A DNA stretch of 64,000 bases from Deltaproteobacteria bacterium RIFCSPHIGHO2_01_FULL_43_49. GTDB taxonomy: Bacteria; UBA10199; SPLOWO2-01-44-7. Of this stretch, positions 2,996-64,000 are shown piece after piece. Numbering within the stretch: position 1 is the first letter of the stretch; each line of letters opens with the position of its first letter. Location of the stretch: contig MGRG01000008.1 of assembly GCA_001798075.1 (NCBI GenBank), positions 372,001 through 436,000 on the forward strand. Direction: 5' to 3'. The notes under the pieces were generated by a model. The model saw nothing but the letters and a program-made list of their open reading frames with translations, did not search any database and was not told the origin of the DNA. The translations under genes were made by a program, and so were the position numbers.

Positions 2996-3240
2996 TGAAA
3001 GCTAAAATATACATAACATTGAAAAATGGAGTTCATGATCCGCAAGGAGAAGCTGTTCTTGGCACCTTGAAACATCTAGGATTTGAAGGAGTGCAGGGGG
3101 TCCGTGTGGGAAAATATATTGAACTCAACTTAAATGGTGTATCGAAAGAACAAACTCAGACTCAAGTGAGGTCAATGTGCGAGAAATTATTGGCCAATAC
3201 TGTGATTGAATCGTATTCGTTTGAAATAGTCGAACAATGA
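2995..3240 (+). CDS. purS: FGAM synthase subunit PurS
   Basis: The 81-residue small subunit bridges PurQ and PurL in formylglycinamidine ribonucleotide synthase and helps channel ammonia. The sequence KAKIYITLKNGVHDPQGEA, then LKHLGFEGVQGVRVGKYIEL, matches the PurS fold. I chose ATG at 2995 rather than an upstream in-frame start at 2935, because the upstream 20 residues would be encoded by the palindrome and have no family counterpart. purQ follows after about 48 bp that hold a short palindromic element. Confidence 0.95.
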   Translation: MKAKIYITLKNGVHDPQGEAVLGTLKHLGFEGVQGVRVGKYIELNLNGVSKEQTQTQVRSMCEKLLANTVIESYSFEIVEQ

Positions 3241-3280
3241 ATGGGTGGCCCGGAGAACAGACCCGTTCATTGTTCAAGGA
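3231..3280. repeat. Shortened family-1 palindromic element between purS and purQ
   Basis: Outer arms GAACAATGAATGGGT and ACCCGTTCATTGTTC are complementary apart from one position. The centre reads GGCCCGGAG then AACAG, which keeps the left internal-loop sequence of the full-length family-1 elements (GGGTGGCCCGGAGTG) and the right end CAGACCC, but lacks the internal stem. It starts within the last codons of purS and encodes the purS stop. Interpreted as an internally deleted copy. Confidence 0.65.
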
Positions 3281-17417: not shown

Positions 17418-18635
17418 GTGAATTTCAGACCCACACATGCGGTAATTGACCTTAAAGCCCTGAAACATAATTATCAAGAGGTTGTCAAGCGCCTCCCAAA
17501 AGGGGTGGGGGTTTTAACCATGGTCAAGGCCGATGCCTATGGCCATGGGGCTGTAGCCGTGGCCAAAGTTTTTGAAGCCTGCGGTGCGGTCTGTTTGGGG
17601 GTGGCCACGATTGAAGAGGGGATAGAACTTCGCCAGGCTGGCGTTAAAGCAAAAATCTTAGTGATGGCCCCACCACTTGACCTACCTCAGAATGAGGACA
17701 TGGTTTCTGAGCGCCTACAGGGCGCTCGGTCAAGTGGTGGGGTGGGGGGTTTATGGGGAGAGGGGAAGGAAGCCGCAGAGATTCTTTTGAAACATTGCTT
17801 AACGCCCGTTGTTCATTCGGCAGGGGTCATCGAGTTGTTAGGCGAACAAGCAAAAGTGCAAAAAGCGGATGTTATTGTTCATTTAAAAATCGACACTGGA
17901 ATGAACCGCTTAGGCGTTACACCTCAAGCATTACCTAAAGTATTAAAAGGACTCGCAAAAGTCCCTCAAGTAAAACTTGAAGGGGTGATGACCCATCTGG
18001 CCTGGCGTCAAAATAAGGAAAATACCGACAAGCAAGTCAAACTTTTTAAAGAAGCAGGAGCAAAAATTTTGGCAACCCTTGGAAAAATTCCTGTTTGGCA
18101 CATTGCCAACTCGGCGTCTGTTATGGAGGGCTCACCCATTGAATTTGACTGGGCTTCCAAATATTGGGTTCGGCCGGGGATCATGCTCTATGGCATTCCA
18201 CCCTATCCAGAATTTTCCAAGAAGGCTGATTTAAAACCGGTGATGTCTTTGAAAAGTAAAGTGGCTTTGATGAAGCAAGTGCCGAAAGGAACCAAGGTCA
18301 GTTACAATTGTACCTTTACGACAAAGCGATCTTCTTGTATCGGAGTAGTTCCCATTGGCTATGCGGATGGTTATCCTTGGTCTGTGGCTGGAAAAGCCTC
18401 TGTTTTGGTTGAAGACAAAAGAGTACCGGTGTTGGGTCGAGTGACGATGGATATGATCATGGTCGATTTGACCGATTCTCCAAAAGCAAAAGTAGGGAGC
18501 GAAGTCGTTTTGTTGGGCAAACAGGGCGCCGAACAAATTAGCGCCGATGAGATTGCGAAATGGGCAGGCACAATTGGCTATGAAATTGTTTGCCGCGTTT
18601 CTAAAAGAATGCCGAGGGTCTATTATAGGGGCTAG
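17418..18635 (+). CDS. alr: Alanine racemase, with in-frame palindromic insertion
   Basis: PLP enzyme that makes D-alanine for peptidoglycan. The PLP lysine is in MVKADAYGHG (Lys37); KVSYNCTF holds the region of the second catalytic base, and VPIGYADGYPW and VTMDMIMVDLT are typical. The start is GTG. At 405 residues it is longer than usual because about 22 residues (LPQNEDMVSERLQGARSSGG) follow ILVMAPP, encoded by a palindrome at 17668-17742. The last residues (VYYRG) and the stop are supplied by a second type of repeat at 18616-18697. The gene runs into mlaE. Confidence 0.94.
   Translation: MNFRPTHAVIDLKALKHNYQEVVKRLPKGVGVLTMVKADAYGHGAVAVAKVFEACGAVCLGVATIEEGIELRQAGVKAKILVMAPPLDLPQNEDMVSERLQGARSSGGVGGLWGEGKEAAEILLKHCLTPVVHSAGVIELLGEQAKVQKADVIVHLKIDTGMNRLGVTPQALPKVLKGLAKVPQVKLEGVMTHLAWRQNKENTDKQVKLFKEAGAKILATLGKIPVWHIANSASVMEGSPIEFDWASKYWVRPGIMLYGIPPYPEFSKKADLKPVMSLKSKVALMKQVPKGTKVSYNCTFTTKRSSCIGVVPIGYADGYPWSVAGKASVLVEDKRVPVLGRVTMDMIMVDLTDSPKAKVGSEVVLLGKQGAEQISADEIAKWAGTIGYEIVCRVSKRMPRVYYRG
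17668..17742. repeat. Family-4 palindromic element inside alr
   Basis: Perfect 15-bp arms CCCCACCACTTGACC and GGTCAAGTGGTGGGG enclose 45 bp with an inner hairpin GAGCGCC/GGCGCTC. It is in frame with alr. The arms resemble those of the element at 39967-40027 (CCCCACCACCTG / CAGGTGGTGGGG). Confidence 0.8.
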
Positions 18636-23158: not shown

Positions 23159-23253
23159 GGTGAAAAAGTAGTAGGTCCTGTCCCTCCGTGTTGCCGTGGG
23201 GACCCCTAACAAAACCCCACAGCAACACTGCGGGCCACCCACTACTTTTTCAC
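23159..23253. repeat. Family-1 palindromic element between convergent genes
   Basis: The core (about 23174-23240) reads, on the minus strand, GGGTGGCCCGCAGTG, stem TTGCTGTGGGG, loop TTTTGTTAGG, stem TCCCCACGGCAA, CACGGAGGGACAGGACC. It is enclosed by perfect outer arms GTGAAAAAGTAGT and ACTACTTTTTCAC. With the T-run on both strands it can terminate transcripts from purH and from the gene ending at 23258. Confidence 0.88.
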
Positions 23254-31493: not shown

Positions 31494-34380
31494 AAATGAT
31501 CTTTTCTAGCCTCTCTTTAGAGGCCTTTAAACTCTCGTTTGTTCGCTTCTCACTATGTTGCCTCAAAGTTTTCAGAAAGAGAAGCCTAGTTTCTATTATA
31601 GGGGCTCGCGTCGCCCCCTCCAACGGCAAAGCCGTCGGAGCCTCCCCCTCAAACTCGCTTTGCTCGCTGGCCGGCTTTTGCACCCCTTTGGATAAGGCCA
31701 GGGCATAACAATCCATTTGGCGCTGGTATTTTTCGGGTTCGAAATGGGTATCGGTTTTGAAATCGCAAATGACCCAGCCTTGAGGCGTCTCAAAGGCATA
31801 ATCGATAATACCGGTAACCACTGTATCCGAAATTTTGAGCCGAAAAGGGAGTTCGTGCAAACCCTCCCATGTTGGTGGCGCCATGTCACTTTTTAAAAAC
31901 GAATGGATGAAGTTTCGGACAGATGCAAATTCATCATCGTTTACGATAACATTTTGTTCAAAGAGGTTTTTTTTCAAAAGGGTATCAACGCCGATATTTT
32001 TTGTAGACCCAATTTGTTTTAAAACACCGTGAACGATATTGCCGAGTTGAGTTCCCTGAAGCAGCGGTTGGGTGGGTCCTGCCGGCTTTGGGATTATCCC
32101 AAAGCCGTCACCCACCCCACCGATCTGATCCGCTTTCTCAAACGTTCCCAATTTCGTCACAGCAACATAGGGAATTTCTTTTTTAGAGTGGTTAAAAATT
32201 AGTGGGTGACAGCCGCGAAGGGGTCCGAGGGGCCCCTTTTGGGGAGACGGACCCAAGCGGCTGGCAGGTCCCACTAATTTTTTCTCATCCCAAGAAGGAA
32301 TTTTCCCAAAACTCCCAAGCGCTTCTTTAAGCCAGCCATACCATGGCCCCGTTTGTTTGCCCTCTTCATGCCAGGGAATCAGCAATTTTTCTTTGGCTCT
32401 CGTGAGGGCCACATAGAGCAAGCGTTTGCGCTCTTGCAGGTCTTGATATTTATCTTTTTCTTTCAACTGAGCTGTTGTCTCGCTGGGGACATAATTGCTA
32501 AAAGGGTTTGGGGACTCTCTTAAATAAAAGCCCAAACCCTCTTCTCTCAAAAAAATGTGGCGATTACCGCTTTGAGGCGGCTGCCGCAATAAATCGGGGA
32601 GGATGATAATCGGAAATTCCAAGCCTTTGGCAGCGTGCACGGTCATCAGTTGGCAGGCATTCGAACTTTGATCGACCGTGGAGGCCGGGGCAAGAGTGCT
32701 TCTCCGTTTTTTTAACTCTTCAAAATACTCCAGAAGATCTTCAAGCGACATCTCTTCTTCGATTTCCAATTTTCGGGTGAGCTCGATGAATTGTTCGACA
32801 TTGGCCAGTTTGGTGCCCGAAGGGTCCAGCTTGTGAAGAAGTAAATCATAATGTGTGTTTGAGACAGCCTCGCTCAAAATTTCAGCTCCACTTAAGCTTT
32901 TCCTATTTTCAAAAAGTTCCTTGAGCCAATTTGCTTCTGGTTGTTCCAATAGCGCTTTCCCCAAATCGGTTGGATGTTTCAGGCAAAATTGGGTGATGAA
33001 ACCATCGGTAAAGCCAATCAAGGGAGAACGCATGAGACCGACCAATGCCAGCCTCTCTTCTAGGTTTACCATGAGTTTGAGACAAAAAAGAAGATCGATG
33101 ACCTCTTGTGCGTTGAGAAACCCGCGACCGCCGGATAGATGATAAGGGATTCCAAAAGCCTTGAAGGCTTTTTCGTAGTGACGCACATCACTCAACGATT
33201 GAAAGAGGAGAGCAAAGTCTCCGAAAGATTTTTTACCTTGGCTACACGATTTCTGAATCGTCTGAGCAATCAGAAGGGCCTCTGTTTTACGCCGCTCTTC
33301 TTTGGAGGTTTTGAGGTCGGCTGAGATGGCTAAAATTTCCAGAGCAGGGTCTTTGCGCCTCTCACGCGTCGCGACAAGGGCTGTTTTTTCAACAGGGGAG
33401 AAGAGTTGTTGGAAGGTGTGATTGACGAATTGTAAAATCTCGGGGCGGGAGCGAAAATTTTCGTTGAGTTCCACAAGGTGTCCCCCCGCCTTTACAATCC
33501 AATCCACAATTATTTTAAAGCCCTCTACGTTGGCCCCGCGAAAACGATAAATCGATTGTTTGGGATCCCCCACGACACACAAACAATTTTTGGAAGGGTT
33601 GAAAAGAAGGCGGATCAATTCACGCTGAAGGTCATTGATGTCTTGTACTTCATCGACCAAAATATGGGCAAAACGATTCTGATAATTTTTTAAAACTTCT
33701 TCGTTTGTTGTCAACAAATTGAGTGCCAAGATTTCCAAGTCTTGAAAATCGAGTGTTTGCCGCCGGCTTTTTTCCTCCGTGTAGGATTCTAAGATTTTTT
33801 TATAAAGATTGCGTGTCGCCTCTAACAACCGCCCTTCTTGGTCCATAGTCTTTGGTCCATAGTCCCTAGTCCCTATGTGCTTCTCCGCATGCCACCGAAA
33901 TTGTAACAATTCCTCAAGCAACAAAAGGGCGTGGCGAAATTCCAATTCTTCAACCAGAAAAAGGGCGTTCGGTTCTTTGGCATCGAGAGCTTTCAGGAGT
34001 TGTTCGCGACAATGACGATGGATAGCCAATTTGGCCGTGTGCTCATCCCAAACAGAAGGGTTATCGGAAAAATGAAGGAGTGGGGCCTGTTCTTTAAGGA
34101 GGTTGAGACAAAAACCGTGGAAAGTGCCCACATTGGCAAAAGCCAGTTCTTGTTTTTTGGAATCGCTTAAACCCGATGCAATTCTTCTTTTGAGTTCCTG
34201 GGCCGCCTTTTCCGTAAAGGTGATGGCTAATATTTGGTTAAGTCCCACCTTGCCTGAGTTGAGGATGACTTTAAGGCGCTGAGTCAGAACCTCCGTTTTG
34301 CCAGAGCCCGCCGAGGCAATAATGGCAGTCGGTTTTTCAGTCGATTCGATCGCCAGTTTTTGATTTTTAGTAAGTTGCAT
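31465..34380 (-). CDS. addA: AddA/RecB-like helicase-nuclease with three in-frame elements
   Basis: UvrD-type helicase with a C-terminal PD-(D/E)XK nuclease, for double-strand-break resection with the neighbouring AddB-like protein. Motifs: ASAGSGKT (Walker A, near residue 25), ILVDEVQDIND, VGDPKQSIYRFRG, MTVHAAKGLEFP, LLYVALTRAKEKL, and the nuclease GIIDYAFETP...CDFKTD near residue 880. Three palindromic repeats are translated in frame: residues near 705 (LVGPASRLGPSPQKGPLG), near 760 (GGVGDGFGIIPKPAGPTQP), and near the C-terminus (EGEAPTALPLEGATRAPII). A simple-repeat stretch lies near residue 175. All motifs survive, so activity is plausible. Confidence 0.9.
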   Translation of the reverse strand: MQLTKNQKLAIESTEKPTAIIASAGSGKTEVLTQRLKVILNSGKVGLNQILAITFTEKAAQELKRRIASGLSDSKKQELAFANVGTFHGFCLNLLKEQAPLLHFSDNPSVWDEHTAKLAIHRHCREQLLKALDAKEPNALFLVEELEFRHALLLLEELLQFRWHAEKHIGTRDYGPKTMDQEGRLLEATRNLYKKILESYTEEKSRRQTLDFQDLEILALNLLTTNEEVLKNYQNRFAHILVDEVQDINDLQRELIRLLFNPSKNCLCVVGDPKQSIYRFRGANVEGFKIIVDWIVKAGGHLVELNENFRSRPEILQFVNHTFQQLFSPVEKTALVATRERRKDPALEILAISADLKTSKEERRKTEALLIAQTIQKSCSQGKKSFGDFALLFQSLSDVRHYEKAFKAFGIPYHLSGGRGFLNAQEVIDLLFCLKLMVNLEERLALVGLMRSPLIGFTDGFITQFCLKHPTDLGKALLEQPEANWLKELFENRKSLSGAEILSEAVSNTHYDLLLHKLDPSGTKLANVEQFIELTRKLEIEEEMSLEDLLEYFEELKKRRSTLAPASTVDQSSNACQLMTVHAAKGLEFPIIILPDLLRQPPQSGNRHIFLREEGLGFYLRESPNPFSNYVPSETTAQLKEKDKYQDLQERKRLLYVALTRAKEKLLIPWHEEGKQTGPWYGWLKEALGSFGKIPSWDEKKLVGPASRLGPSPQKGPLGPLRGCHPLIFNHSKKEIPYVAVTKLGTFEKADQIGGVGDGFGIIPKPAGPTQPLLQGTQLGNIVHGVLKQIGSTKNIGVDTLLKKNLFEQNVIVNDDEFASVRNFIHSFLKSDMAPPTWEGLHELPFRLKISDTVVTGIIDYAFETPQGWVICDFKTDTHFEPEKYQRQMDCYALALSKGVQKPASEQSEFEGEAPTALPLEGATRAPIIETRLLFLKTLRQHSEKRTNESLKASKERLEKIIYDQQVSQKI
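31589..31672. repeat. Family-3 repeat in the addA 3' end
   Basis: Matches the copy at 18616-18697: TCTATTATAGGGGCTCGCG, GCCCCCTCC, hairpin CAACGGC aaa GCCGTCG, GAGCCTCCCCCTC, TGCTCGCTGG. In addA it is read on the opposite strand as part of the C-terminal tail. Confidence 0.8.
32066..32121. repeat. Family-2 palindromic element in addA
   Basis: On the minus strand GGGTGACGGCTTTGGG, ataat, CCCAAAGCCGGCAGGACCC, enclosed by GGGTGG/CCACCC arms. In frame with addA. Close to the element at 6021-6069. Confidence 0.8.
32194..32284. repeat. Longer family-2 palindromic element in addA
   Basis: Outer arms AAAAATTAGTGGG and CCCACTAATTTTT, then GTGACAGCCGC and GCGGCTGGCAGG, then GGGTCCG and CGGACCC around an inner GGGGCCCC. 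The ends match family 2 but the centre is different. In frame with addA. Confidence 0.8.
33841..33880. repeat. Short repeats in addA
   Basis: GGTCCATAGTC occurs twice, followed by CCTAGTCCCTA. In frame; it encodes the TRDYGPKTMDQ stretch, which lies between helicase motifs. Confidence 0.55.
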
Positions 34381-34389
34381 AAAATAACA

Positions 34390-34466
34390 GTCGAAAATGG
34401 GTGATCGCCGTAGGCCTGTTAGCCTTTAGGCGTACAGGCCGCAGGCGAGCAGGACCCATTTTCGAC
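34390..34466. repeat. Family-2 palindromic element between addB and addA
   Basis: Perfect 13-bp outer arms GTCGAAAATGGGT and ACCCATTTTCGAC, then GATCGCC / GGCGAGCAG, then AGGCCTGT / ACAGGCC around TAGCCTTTAGGCGT. It lies 10 bp upstream of the addA ATG and replaces any ribosome-binding site. Confidence 0.8.
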
Positions 34467-39900: not shown

Positions 39901-39967
39901 AGATGAGGGCGGCCATCAGCATCCAGGCAAAGACGGGGTTGCGTATCGAAATTTCCGAGAGGGTCAC
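36911..39967 (-). CDS. RND-family efflux transporter
   Basis: HAE-1-type inner-membrane pump of about 1018 residues with twelve expected membrane helices (MLMAALILFGFISFSRMG; LVLAIGIVVDDAIMVLENIFRH with the proton-relay Asp pair; IGLILLMGIVKKNSILLVDF). The periplasmic loops and pseudo-repeat are intact. I take GTG 39967 as the start (GTG ACC CTC TCG, giving TLSEISIRNPVFAWM); the longer frame from 40054 translates a palindromic element. The TolC-type gene lies directly upstream, but no periplasmic adaptor gene is present in this operon. Confidence 0.92.
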   Translation of the reverse strand: MTLSEISIRNPVFAWMLMAALILFGFISFSRMGVSEMPDVDFPVVTVHTTLEGAAPEVMESDVIDVVEDAVMSIQGIREVSSSARQGFANISVEFDLGRDIDVALQEVQTKIAQAQRNLPKEMDPPVVTKTNPEDQPIMWLSLSGEKPVPTLMAYTRDHLKDQLQTIAGVGDIFLGGYIDPNLRVWLKKEKLKSYELTVQDVLAAISAEHIELPAGRVETGDKELNVRAMGEALSAEEFGNIVIERRGGSPVYRPIYLKEVADVEEGLNDIRRLSRTGGKPSVGLGVRKQRGSNAVEVAHAVKEKLKELQKQLPEGLNLVVNFDSTQFIEHSIGELKFTLFLAALLTSLVCWLFLGSWSSTANILMAIPTSIVGTFIVLYFLGFTLNTFTLLGLVLAIGIVVDDAIMVLENIFRHQEKGQDKFTAALEGSKQITFAAIAATAAIVAIFLPVAFMTGVIGKFFLQFGITISVAVLFSLLEALTLTPMRCSQFVSVKERTSKIGKASDEFFKTGAVRYHHLLEICLAHRGKILLVSLSLFLLSFAFFKGLKKEFVPAQDQSMFLATLKTPVGSSIEFTSEKVKHVESFLSQRPEVLRYFAAVGGFGGGEVNSGMVFITLKQRKERSLSQQQFMGICREAFNKIPDLQAFLMDFSTRGLSAQRGFPIEFTIRGPSWDKLAELSQEIKNQMQNNEKFFSDVDTDYLAGMPEVRVIPDRAKAIEHGVSIKDISETINALIGGVRAGKFKQSGRRIDVRARLISQDRSKPTDIQSLYVRNNRGEMIQLGELVQIQEVPSLLTITRKNRERAIGVFANVAQGASQAKSLEMAQQIAQKVLPEGYRVVFGGSAQTFQESFESLFFALYLGIIISYMILASQFNSFSHPLSVLLALPFSVSGAAMALFISGNSLNIYSVIGLILLMGIVKKNSILLVDFTNQIRKNKKGSVHEALLEACPIRLRPILMTSIATIAAAVPAALALGPGSETRIPMAVAVIGGVFLSTLLTLFVVPCAYSLLARWEKKT

Positions 39968-40027
39968 CCCACCACCTGTTCTTTGGCCATAGGGCCAATC
40001 GTCTTCGTTGATGGAACAGGTGGTGGG
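39967..40027. repeat. Family-4 palindromic element at the RND start codon
   Basis: Arms CCCCACCACCTGTTC and GAACAGGTGGTGGGG flank a 30-bp centre. On the plus strand the arms are bordered by GGGTCA on each side (39962-39967 and about 40025-40030), a likely 6-bp target duplication. Without it the sequence would read CCC ATG ACC CTC TCG, so the insertion split the original ATG start of the pump gene. Confidence 0.75.
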
Positions 40028-40028
40028 G

Positions 40029-41288
40029 TCATGGGAGCGGTTCTCCCGTTGCAACTTTCAATGCAAAATAATCTACCTTGGCTTGTGCCAGAGTGCGATT
40101 AAACTCCCGTTTGATCTCTTGCAAATTTTTGAGAGTTGCCAAAACTTCTAAATTGTTGACCAACCCCAGTTGGTAGTCTTGTTCCACAACGCGAAAATTT
40201 TTTTCCGCTTTGGCCTTTGCTGTTTCCAAAGCGACGACTTGCTTTTGAGACGTCAAAAAATCGTTGTAACTTTGTTTGATTTCTAGCTCCACTTGCCGAT
40301 GTTTTTCTTGCGAGGCAAGTTCTGCCTGTTTGAGGTGGATCTTGGCCTCTTGAATTTTGCCCCGCGTTTGTCCTCCTTGAAAGATCGGAACATCGAGGGA
40401 AAAAAGACTATCCCATTTGATGTTTTCTTGAAAACCGACACGGTAGGTATAGTAATTGGCTTCGACATTAATGGAGGGAAATCGGGCCCCTTTTTCAACA
40501 GACAATAAAGATTTGGCTTCATTGCGTGCCTCTCTTGCCGCTTTAATATCGGGGCGTTTAGAGGTGCTCTTTAACAAGGAAGGGGCTTCCGGGAGCTCTT
40601 TTGGCATATTCAAGTCATCTTTTAAAGAATCAACAGAAACCCCTGTAAAATAATATAAAATTTCCTTTGCCTGTTCGGAGGAACCCTCCACATCGCTTAA
40701 GGTTGCTTGTTGCATGGCGAGGTCTGATTCGGTGGCCAGTTGTTCACTGATTCTCGATTTGCCGAGTTGGGTTCTGGCCTTCAATTCCATCAGGCGATTT
40801 TTGAGTGTCTTTTCGATTTCTTTTAAAATGGCGACATCCCGTTCGAGTTGGAGGAAAGAATAAAAGGCTTTTGTGACATCGAGAAAAAGGTTTCTTTTTG
40901 CCTGTTCCCATTCTGCTTCGTTTCCTCTTTTTTGGGCGCGCATTGCTTTGAGTGCGTTGAATTCTCGAAAGCCGGCAAAGATCGGTTGTTTGGCATTAAA
41001 TTTGAGCTCTGGTTTGCTAAATCTTGTGAAGGTGGTTCCAACGCCACTCGAAGAGGCTGATGCCGAGTCATCTTGCAGAAATTCGGTTCCCTTGAAGCTA
41101 ATTTTTGGCAAAATAGAACCAATGGCTTGAGAATACTTTGCGTTGGAACTTTTAATATCGGCTTCTTCGATCGCCACCCGTTCGCTTTGTTTGAGAGCGA
41201 GTTGATAACATTCTTGGAGTGTGAGGGTGTTTTGGGCAAAACAAAGGTGCGAAACCAATAAAAGGACAATTGTGGCTAATTTTTTCAT
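40029..41288 (-). CDS. TolC-type outer membrane efflux protein
   Basis: Outer-membrane factor of 419 residues with a signal peptide (MKKLATIVLLLVSHLCFA). The two related halves each have long coiled-coil helices (ALKQSERVAIEEADIKSSNAKYSQAIGSILPKISF; LASQEKHRQVELEIKQSYNDFLTSQKQVVAL). It starts the minus-strand operon with the RND pump, and together they should form an export path, with an adaptor supplied from elsewhere. Confidence 0.9.
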   Translation of the reverse strand: MKKLATIVLLLVSHLCFAQNTLTLQECYQLALKQSERVAIEEADIKSSNAKYSQAIGSILPKISFKGTEFLQDDSASASSSGVGTTFTRFSKPELKFNAKQPIFAGFREFNALKAMRAQKRGNEAEWEQAKRNLFLDVTKAFYSFLQLERDVAILKEIEKTLKNRLMELKARTQLGKSRISEQLATESDLAMQQATLSDVEGSSEQAKEILYYFTGVSVDSLKDDLNMPKELPEAPSLLKSTSKRPDIKAAREARNEAKSLLSVEKGARFPSINVEANYYTYRVGFQENIKWDSLFSLDVPIFQGGQTRGKIQEAKIHLKQAELASQEKHRQVELEIKQSYNDFLTSQKQVVALETAKAKAEKNFRVVEQDYQLGLVNNLEVLATLKNLQEIKREFNRTLAQAKVDYFALKVATGEPLP

Positions 41289-43427: not shown

Positions 43428-43466
43428 TTACTTTTTTGAACCCCCTCTGTCAAGATTCAATTCGAT

Positions 43467-43558
43467 TAAAAAAGTAACGGGTGGCCCGGAGTGTTTGTTG
43501 TGGGGTTTAGTTAGGGGCCCCCACAAAAACACGGAGGGACAGGCCCCGTTACTTTTTT
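43467..43558. repeat. Family-1 palindromic element between divergent genes
   Basis: Core GGGTGGCCCGGAGTG, stem TTTGTTGTGGGG, loop TTTAGTTAGG, stem CCCCCACAAAAA, CACGGAGGGACAGGCCCC; outer arms AAAAAAGTAAC and GTTACTTTTTT. It sits between the peptidase-like gene and comM and is not in frame with either chosen start. Confidence 0.88.
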
Positions 43559-43674
43559 ACACCTTTAAGTTGCTGTGTTTCAGTCGGACGGTGACGGAAA
43601 TTGTGCAGTTGGTTTGTCCAAATCAATTTATTGCCGACTTTGCGTGGCACACATTTTGCAAAACAAACCATCAA

Positions 43675-47077: not shown

Positions 47078-47210
47078 GCAATCGCAGGCCTATGAAAATG
47101 AAGCGAAGGGGTGGCCCGGAGTGTTTGTTGTGGGGTTTAGTTAGGGGCCCCCACAAAAACACGGAGGGACAGGACCCCGTAGCTCCATTCTCATTTGCGA
47201 AAGCGATTGC
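47078..47210. repeat. Family-1 element nested in a longer palindrome
   Basis: The family-1 core (47108-47177) is nearly identical to that at 43479-43548: GGGTGGCCCGGAGTG through CACGGAGGGACAGGACCCC. It is enclosed by imperfect arms GCAATCGC, ATGAAAATG, AGC and GCT, CATT, TCAT, GCGATTGC. The outer ends match those of 46831-46993, so a family-1 element may have inserted into a family-5 palindrome. Confidence 0.8.
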
Positions 47211-63513: not shown

Positions 63514-63600
63514 GACGCAACTTGTCAACCCCCTGCACCTTGACCCCGCAACCTTTTTGGATTCTAGCCGAATAGATAATTGGAAATGAAGATAGCTATA

Positions 63601-64000
63601 ATGATGAAAAAATTGTGGGTGGCCCGCAGTGTTGGTCATGGGGTTTTGTTAGGGGCCCCCGTGACAACACGGAGGGACAGGACCCGCAATTTTTTCGTCC
63701 TTTTTATTATAAATTTTTGGCTATGGTTTTCAGCGTGTTCCCCATCTCAATTTACTGCCTGGCAGATTGAGACTTTTGCAAAAACACCAATCACTGGAAG
63801 TGTTTCAAAAACTATTTCTTTGCGAAATGAAAATCCCAAAGAGGTTCAAAAGGTAAGTATTGGATTCGACAGCACAGGAGATGGCCGGCAACATTTTCGT
63901 ATCGATCGTGTTTCGGTAGGAACAAGGATTGTTGGACTCAAAGATATTTTGGTTCCGCCCGGCACTTCACTCAATATACAAGTGACCTATCAGCCAAGAA
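63601..64000 (+). CDS. Lipoprotein with palindromic element in its signal peptide (partial)
   Basis: From ATG 63601 the frame stays open to the window end. MMKKLW is followed by VARSVGHGVLLGAPVTTRRD (family-1 element), then NFFVLFIINFWLWFSACSPSQ, a complete lipoprotein h-region and lipobox (SAC). Removing the element would leave a normal basic n-region joined to the h-region. The mature part (IETFAKTPITGSVSKTISL..) is beta-rich and truncated. TATAAT at 63597 overlaps the ATG, so the true start, and whether the product is exported, need experiment. Confidence 0.65.
   Translation, partial: MMKKLWVARSVGHGVLLGAPVTTRRDRTRNFFVLFIINFWLWFSACSPSQFTAWQIETFAKTPITGSVSKTISLRNENPKEVQKVSIGFDSTGDGRQHFRIDRVSVGTRIVGLKDILVPPGTSLNIQVTYQPR
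63605..63697. repeat. Family-1 palindromic element in the lipoprotein gene
   Basis: Core GGGTGGCCCGCAGTG, stem TTGGTCATGGGG, loop TTTTGTTAGG, stem CCCCCGTGACAA, CACGGAGGGACAGGACCC, with outer arms GAAAAAATTG and CAATTTTTTC. Compared with prmA the stem has paired changes (CCTGT/ACAGG becomes GTCAT/GTGAC). Confidence 0.9.

Follow-up and report, generated by a model that had tools for sequence, protein, structure and literature searches.

Near the end of the window (the whole 64-kb stretch of DNA analysed here) lies a gene at 63586..64000 (+) that runs past the window and encodes a 399-aa lipoprotein-like protein with a lipoprotein-type signal peptide. A hairpin-shaped repeat occupies 63604-63698 (+) and is read in frame between the n-region and the h-region of this protein, which begins MKIAIMMKKL, followed by the element and then NFFVLFIINFWLWFSAC. 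This copy has 14-nt arms around a 67-nt core. Its 5' outer arm, ATGAAAAAATTGTG (63604..63617, +), is complementary to its 3' outer arm, CGCAATTTTTTCGT (63685..63698, +), and the core (63618..63684, +) comprises a GGTGG junction, a CCC/GGG stem, a GCA/GGA internal loop, an inner covarying stem, an apical G-rich loop and an RCAGGACC junction. The apical loop, TTTTGTTAGGGGC (63644..63656, +), is near-constant across the family.

All six copies that a preliminary description had placed in the window are present. Those at 43466..43560 (+) and 47096..47190 (+) carry the arms TTAAAAAAGTAACG / CGTTACTTTTTTAC and the type B arms GAAGCGAAGG / CCGTAGCTCC, respectively (arm types are defined below). The copy at 23160..23253 (-), with type A arms GTGAAAAAGTAGTG / TACTACTTTTTCAC, lies between convergent genes, and that at 11811..11894 (-) is in frame inside PrmA (gene at 11268-12212, -). 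The PrmA copy has a poor outer stem; in place of a good one, its 3' side repeats GGACAGGA as TCCTGTCC. The copy at 3232..3275 (+), already described as shortened, is stripped of its inner hairpin and has the arms GAACAATGAAT / GTTCATTGTTC; it sits in a short gap 5' of an ORF that, by inspection, appears purQ-like and lies between purine genes.

The genome that holds the window (G000; 2,225,619 bases, or 2.23 Mb, in 15 contigs) contains more than 110 copies of this small repeat, about 110 of which (110 distinct) could be extracted with both ends. The 5' motif GGTGGCCCGNAG has 97 exact matches genome-wide (51 and 46 by strand) versus 0 in a reversed control, and the apical loop GTTWGGGGNCCC has 102 versus 1; the motif count in the window exceeds that of all 100 shuffles. 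A covariance model built from 42 copies gives 91 matches in this genome at E up to 0.001, so that the further copies expected from the six in the window do exist. Elsewhere the same model matches G002 strongly once (81 bits) and G004, G015 and G017 weakly, and within the same bacterial family the matches outside G000 are single and divergent only.

The expectation that the element would match no known RNA family also held. A scan of the window at Rfam gathering scores returned only a tRNA and a group I intron, both elsewhere and neither on the element, and a relaxed scan gave only chance-level weak matches for it. The group I intron match, above its gathering score, is at 12335-12521 (-) and overlaps an ORF at 12372-12929. 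In the collections scanned (GTDB contigs, viral, phage and plasmid), which may lack the closest records to this genome, the full two-ended pattern was absent from viral contigs (IMG/VR), blastn with the 63604 copy gave no phage or plasmid match, and the two-ended pattern had one match only among GTDB contigs, with no Rickettsia record. That single match, GC-rich and in a Spirochaetota contig, lacks complementary arms and was judged to be due to chance.

On one strand, the fold runs inward from an outer stem (typically 11-18 bp) through GGT/ACC, an unpaired GR opposite RCAG, CCC/GGG, a 3x3 loop GNA/GGA and a bulged inner stem of some 14 bp, to the apical loop TTTWGTTAGGGG. The predicted folds of the copies are very stable. 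There are at least three types of inner hairpin, and some copies have none. In most copies an outer stem surrounds the rest; its sequence varies from site to site, but its two sides are complementary at each. Fifty-four copies have the type A stem GTGAAAAAGTAGTG / CGCTACTTTTTCAC, 23 the type B stem TTGGAGCGAAGG / CCGAAGCTCCAA and six the type C stem GGAGTGGTG; the arms of a further 27 (group D) are unlike one another. Layers can also be nested: TTGGAGCGAAGGGGT...ACCCCGAAGCTCCAA may enclose the core directly or may enclose TTGAAAATGACG...CGTCATTTTCAA around the core, with further variants that have an extra GGTGGAGTGGTG layer or a third inner hairpin. What is conserved is a set of internal loops (the junction GGGTGR/RCAGGACCC, the GGA/GGA loop and the apical GTTAGGGG loop) held by freely varying stems, and the GGA/GGA and junction loops stay mismatched in nearly all copies.

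For 34 pairs in 42 copies, pairing holds in 96.1% of cells, and 223 cells are changed on both sides, versus 60 after shuffling; the covariation score is 0.434, versus 0.152 for shuffled and 0.095-0.117 for slid versions. With some 110 copies and covariation above both controls, the proposal of a high-copy palindromic element of constrained structure is well founded. The compensating changes between copies reported for the inner stem are real, TA being replaced by CG at two adjacent pairs in 24 and 21 of 84 copies, but that account missed the outer stem (typically 11-18 bp), where covariation is strongest. Both-side changes affect 13 of the 17 pairs of this helix (helix 1), which covaries far more than the inner stem. 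At positions 3-12 of the A and D arms, pairing is restored by 210 double changes, versus 21 G-T, 12 A-C and 48 other cells; transition mismatches (G-T and A-C together) number 33.

The same description took the paired changes as a sign of selection rather than of recent identity. Many cores, however, are identical or about 92% identical, and the family has therefore been amplified recently. The outer arms are set site by site, not by slow compensatory change, which leaves the earlier claim unsupported as it was worded. Among identical 67-nt cores, left arms are 46% identical between copies but 89% complementary to their partners within copies; among D copies, arms are 36% and cores 92% identical. 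One core (GGTGGCCCGGAGTGTTTGTCG...) occurs in six copies with the arms GAAAAAGCAGGG, GTTAAGTGGCG, TTGGAGCAAA, CTGACGACTGACG, a type B arm and AAAAGTTAAGAGG. Had the arms diverged by slow compensatory change, the cores should have diverged as well, unless gene conversion, a possible alternative, restores them. Most of the covariation comes from the site-specific complementary outer stem. Such covariation is normally taken as proof of selection on RNA; here identical cores carry unrelated, well-paired arms, so much of it seems to have been made at the DNA level, during or after landing, a caution for the discovery of RNAs by covariation. Not all arms are local: in the A subfamily the element seems to carry much of the arm with it.

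The site-specific outer stem recurs in two lineages with different interiors. In a genome from another family of the class (G017; L176-L183), a separate interior of about 121 nt, which starts GGGTGGCCCGACTGGGG and ends GGAGGGACAGGACCC, is present in at least six copies, each with its own arms (for example TAACCGGTGAC/GTCACCGGTTA, CGGTCAGTGAT/GTCACTGACCG and AACAATTCAGTGAT/GTCACTGAATTGTT). In the outer 7 nt of these arms, identity between copies is 30% and complementarity within a copy is 95%. The two families have in common the internal-loop junction GGGTGR...RCAGGACCC, whose purines follow a rule (p 1e-7): G..A in 79, A..G in 10 and G..G in 15 copies, never A..A, with 2 odd copies in 106. Other interiors with this junction, which obey the rule too, occur in G015 and in G000 (window 32203 and 34398; L001, L015, L048, L095), and the junction with other interiors has zero matches in shuffled or reversed controls. 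The two in the window lie at 32191..32285 (+; junction GGGTGACAGCCGC...GCGGCTGGCAGGTCCC, matched at 32203; arms AAAATTAGT / ACTAATTTT) and at 34390..34466 (+; junction GGGTGATCGCC...GGCGAGCAGGACCC, matched at 34398; arms GTCGAAAAT / ATTTTCGAC). Further long palindromes at 17668-17742 and 39966-40029 have GGTCAAGTGGTGGGG and GAACAGGTGGTGGGGT arms around other interiors and resemble the GTGGTGGGT arm end; from their sequence they are possibly more members of this wider group.

Copies are also found within coding sequence in PrmA (window 11811), YgfZ (L005) and PabB (L088); others lie near gene ends, in an N-terminus that looks ComF-like from its sequence and a C-terminus that looks like that of an M23 peptidase. 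Some 13 copies, that at 63604 among them, separate the charged part of a signal peptide from its hydrophobic part (KK-element-FF), showing how such repeats add new peptides to proteins. In the genes compared, orthologues in the same family lack the insert, and ygfZ without the 23-aa core is about as long as its orthologue, as if one flank had been overwritten. A shared reading frame had been suggested; it holds for two copies in the window (11811 in PrmA and 63604, both VARSV...TRRDRTR), but other copies use other frames or the opposite strand, and a conserved encoded peptide was rejected on this ground.

Signal peptides seem to be a favoured site of several unrelated repeats. One signal-peptide gene with the element has an orthologue in G003 (L168) whose n-region carries, at the corresponding place, another palindromic repeat, RHCEEPEATKQS. 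The pabB gene of G004 (L108) has a repeat peptide, CHPCEGRDPLDSRSLPTTYRDKLRGNDSK (CHPCEGRDP...RGND), in the variable loop where G000 has the element. In G004 (L147) the gap 3' of a HisN-like gene, filled by the element in G000, holds an unrelated palindrome, AAGTGCGTTAGTG...CACTTACGCACT; in G002 the same two genes overlap, leaving no gap. At the loci compared (pabB, ygfZ, the HisN-like/TPR/TatD operon and the signal-peptide gene) the relatives' intergenic DNA has diverged too far, or contains other palindromes, and an ancestral arm is not apparent.

Wobble pairs are biased towards the element's own strand. There G·T outnumbers A·C by 89 to 24 (p ~6e-10), and by 45 to 20 (p 0.003) without the two pairs that adjoin the core; these p-values, like that of the junction rule, are optimistic, since copies are related by descent and are not fully independent. 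The bias is 12:2 where both flanking genes run along the element and 19:7 where they run against it (Fisher p 0.45), and there is no preference for G-U on the transcribed strand. Because the bias is independent of the direction of transcription, selection seems to act on the element's own folded strand, not on host mRNA. With genes called heuristically (ORFs scored by codon usage), gap types number 25 (-+), 24 (++), 26 (--) and 14 (+-); copies show no bias in their orientation to genes and often occupy divergent gaps, and a terminator role was rejected on these grounds. Own-strand wobble bias is a simple way to tell repeats selected as host RNA from those selected as mobility intermediates.

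The family is real and abundant, consisting of REP-like hairpins that are probably mobile. Our favoured reading, to which we give a probability of about 0.55, is of a lineage-specific mobile hairpin, non-autonomous and REP/REPIN-like, whose arms result from copying of the flanking DNA through foldback or template switching. The data suggest that at each new site the hairpin makes its outer stem afresh. The folded single strand would be the mobility intermediate, recognised through its unpaired bases. It is most likely single-stranded DNA, and an enzyme of the HUH/Y1 type may handle it, an assignment that we make only tentatively. The nascent strand might copy the element, fold back at the hairpin and then copy its own flank, giving site-specific arms; alternatively, later template switching could turn one flank into an inverted copy of the other. 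Taking all such routes together, the odds that the arms arose by inverted copying of DNA are about even. Covariation of the arms would then stem from copying at the DNA level together with selection for the fold, and not from a role as host RNA. Were the flank copied into the arms at insertion, the element would spread in a way that leaves copies of the target inverted rather than direct. A broader version, which we regard as doubtful, is a superfamily of mobile hairpins defined by the junction GGGTGR...RCAGGACCC, whose insertion would make an inverted, not a direct, target copy by foldback synthesis; each copy would build a matching outer stem and could nest inside other such hairpins.

It is unlikely that the core instead inserts into the centre of pre-existing palindromes, such as terminators or older repeats, so that the arms predate it. 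In keeping with this idea, layers are nested and interchangeable, type B arms holding either the core directly or another palindrome that holds the core; the same gaps or signal peptides in relatives hold other palindromes; and REP dimers inside long palindromes have been published (PMC3733652). However, empty A or B arms were not found (0-2 non-core matches per pattern in 406 kb, a sample biased towards copies), short copies with A arms all keep a remnant of the junction, and few simple palindromes have arms of 11 bp or more (about six in 64 kb). Moreover, the perfect or near-perfect 14-17 bp arms in the coding sequence of pabB and ygfZ would be unlikely targets. Ordinary quasipalindrome correction, a known process (PMC3820800, PMC8604942), could homogenise the arms only after insertion, leaving mobility without a special step. 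The length of ygfZ and the apparent repetition of GGACAGGA as TCCTGTCC by the 11811 copy beside itself fit such a process, but it should erase the GGA/GGA and junction mismatches, which are kept in nearly all copies, and cores that are identical, and hence recent, already have well-paired arms. We consider it a rather weak contender.

Strong covariation, constant loops and very stable folds would also be expected from slow compensatory evolution of a functional RNA (a riboregulator, terminator or mRNA stabiliser) under host selection. This is very improbable, since identical cores carry unrelated arms, the transcribed strand has no G-U preference, there is no preference for orientation or for convergent gaps (counts above), and copies lie in frame within genes. 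Least probable is that the element is a true member of the Rickettsia palindromic element (RPE) families; in-frame insertion, size and palindromic form agree with this, but there is no Rfam match, the scanned collections were empty but for the one chance match, and the same bacterial family has only single divergent matches.

The mobile hairpin proposed here can be compared with several known systems. Like MITEs (e.g. NEMIS and RUP), it is non-autonomous, dispersed, foldable and without coding capacity. MITEs, however, keep their terminal inverted repeats fixed and usually duplicate the target directly, whereas here the terminal inverted repeat changes with the site and arms are not fixed across copies; the comparison with IS ends covered the six Y1 genes of this genome. 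RPEs, at about 100 nt, are similar in size to the present element. They were put forward as its analogue in the preliminary description, and set beside RPEs by description it does appear analogous in behaviour, but no sequence relation was found (Rfam was empty). Both are palindromic and tolerated in frame in genes (PMC3733652), here PrmA, YgfZ, PabB and about 13 signal peptides; the differences are the site-specific outer stem, not described for RPEs in the literature examined, and the use of several frames and both strands.

In form the element resembles REPs and REPINs, which like it are short, high-copy, non-autonomous, mainly intergenic hairpins. In REPINs the larger hairpin is the replicative unit, and compensatory changes occur in the stem and spacers (PMC3116915), as in the present stems. 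TnpAREP (RAYT) is strand-specific, binding REP hairpins of single-stranded DNA by way of bulges and mismatches (PMC8266576), and the folded strand of the present element likewise has strand-specific unpaired features. The genome has six Y1 (PF01797, IS200/REP-type) transposase genes (L100-L105), some of them flanked by short palindromes of their own (AAAAGGCGTC/GACGCCTTTT in L100, CCAGGTACCTGG in L103). No copy lies beside any of the six, the nearest being about 2 kb away, in L100, and a Y1 transposase as flanking partner was rejected for these loci. Unlike REPs, the element has no unpaired GTAG or CGTC tag: GTAG is found only in type A arms, where it is base-paired, and is absent from D and B arms. 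It is also a single nested hairpin of about 95 nt instead of two REPs of 20-40 nt, and its outer stem is site-specific.

A limited literature search found nothing on nested palindromes or double-hairpin elements of this kind. Nested REPs come near: Anabaena variabilis GTAG-15 and H. neapolitanus CGTC-1 are units within larger palindromes that are not found empty, but each outer palindrome has one consensus (PMC3733652), while here there are 27 unlike arms besides types A, B and C. Template switching makes imperfect inverted repeats perfect (PMC3820800), and quasipalindrome mutation of this sort resembles the present case in making two arms perfectly complementary in one step; no mobile element is involved there, whereas here the mismatched internal loops are preserved. 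The unusual part of the present element, compared with these systems, is its site-specific complementary outer stem, in two lineages.
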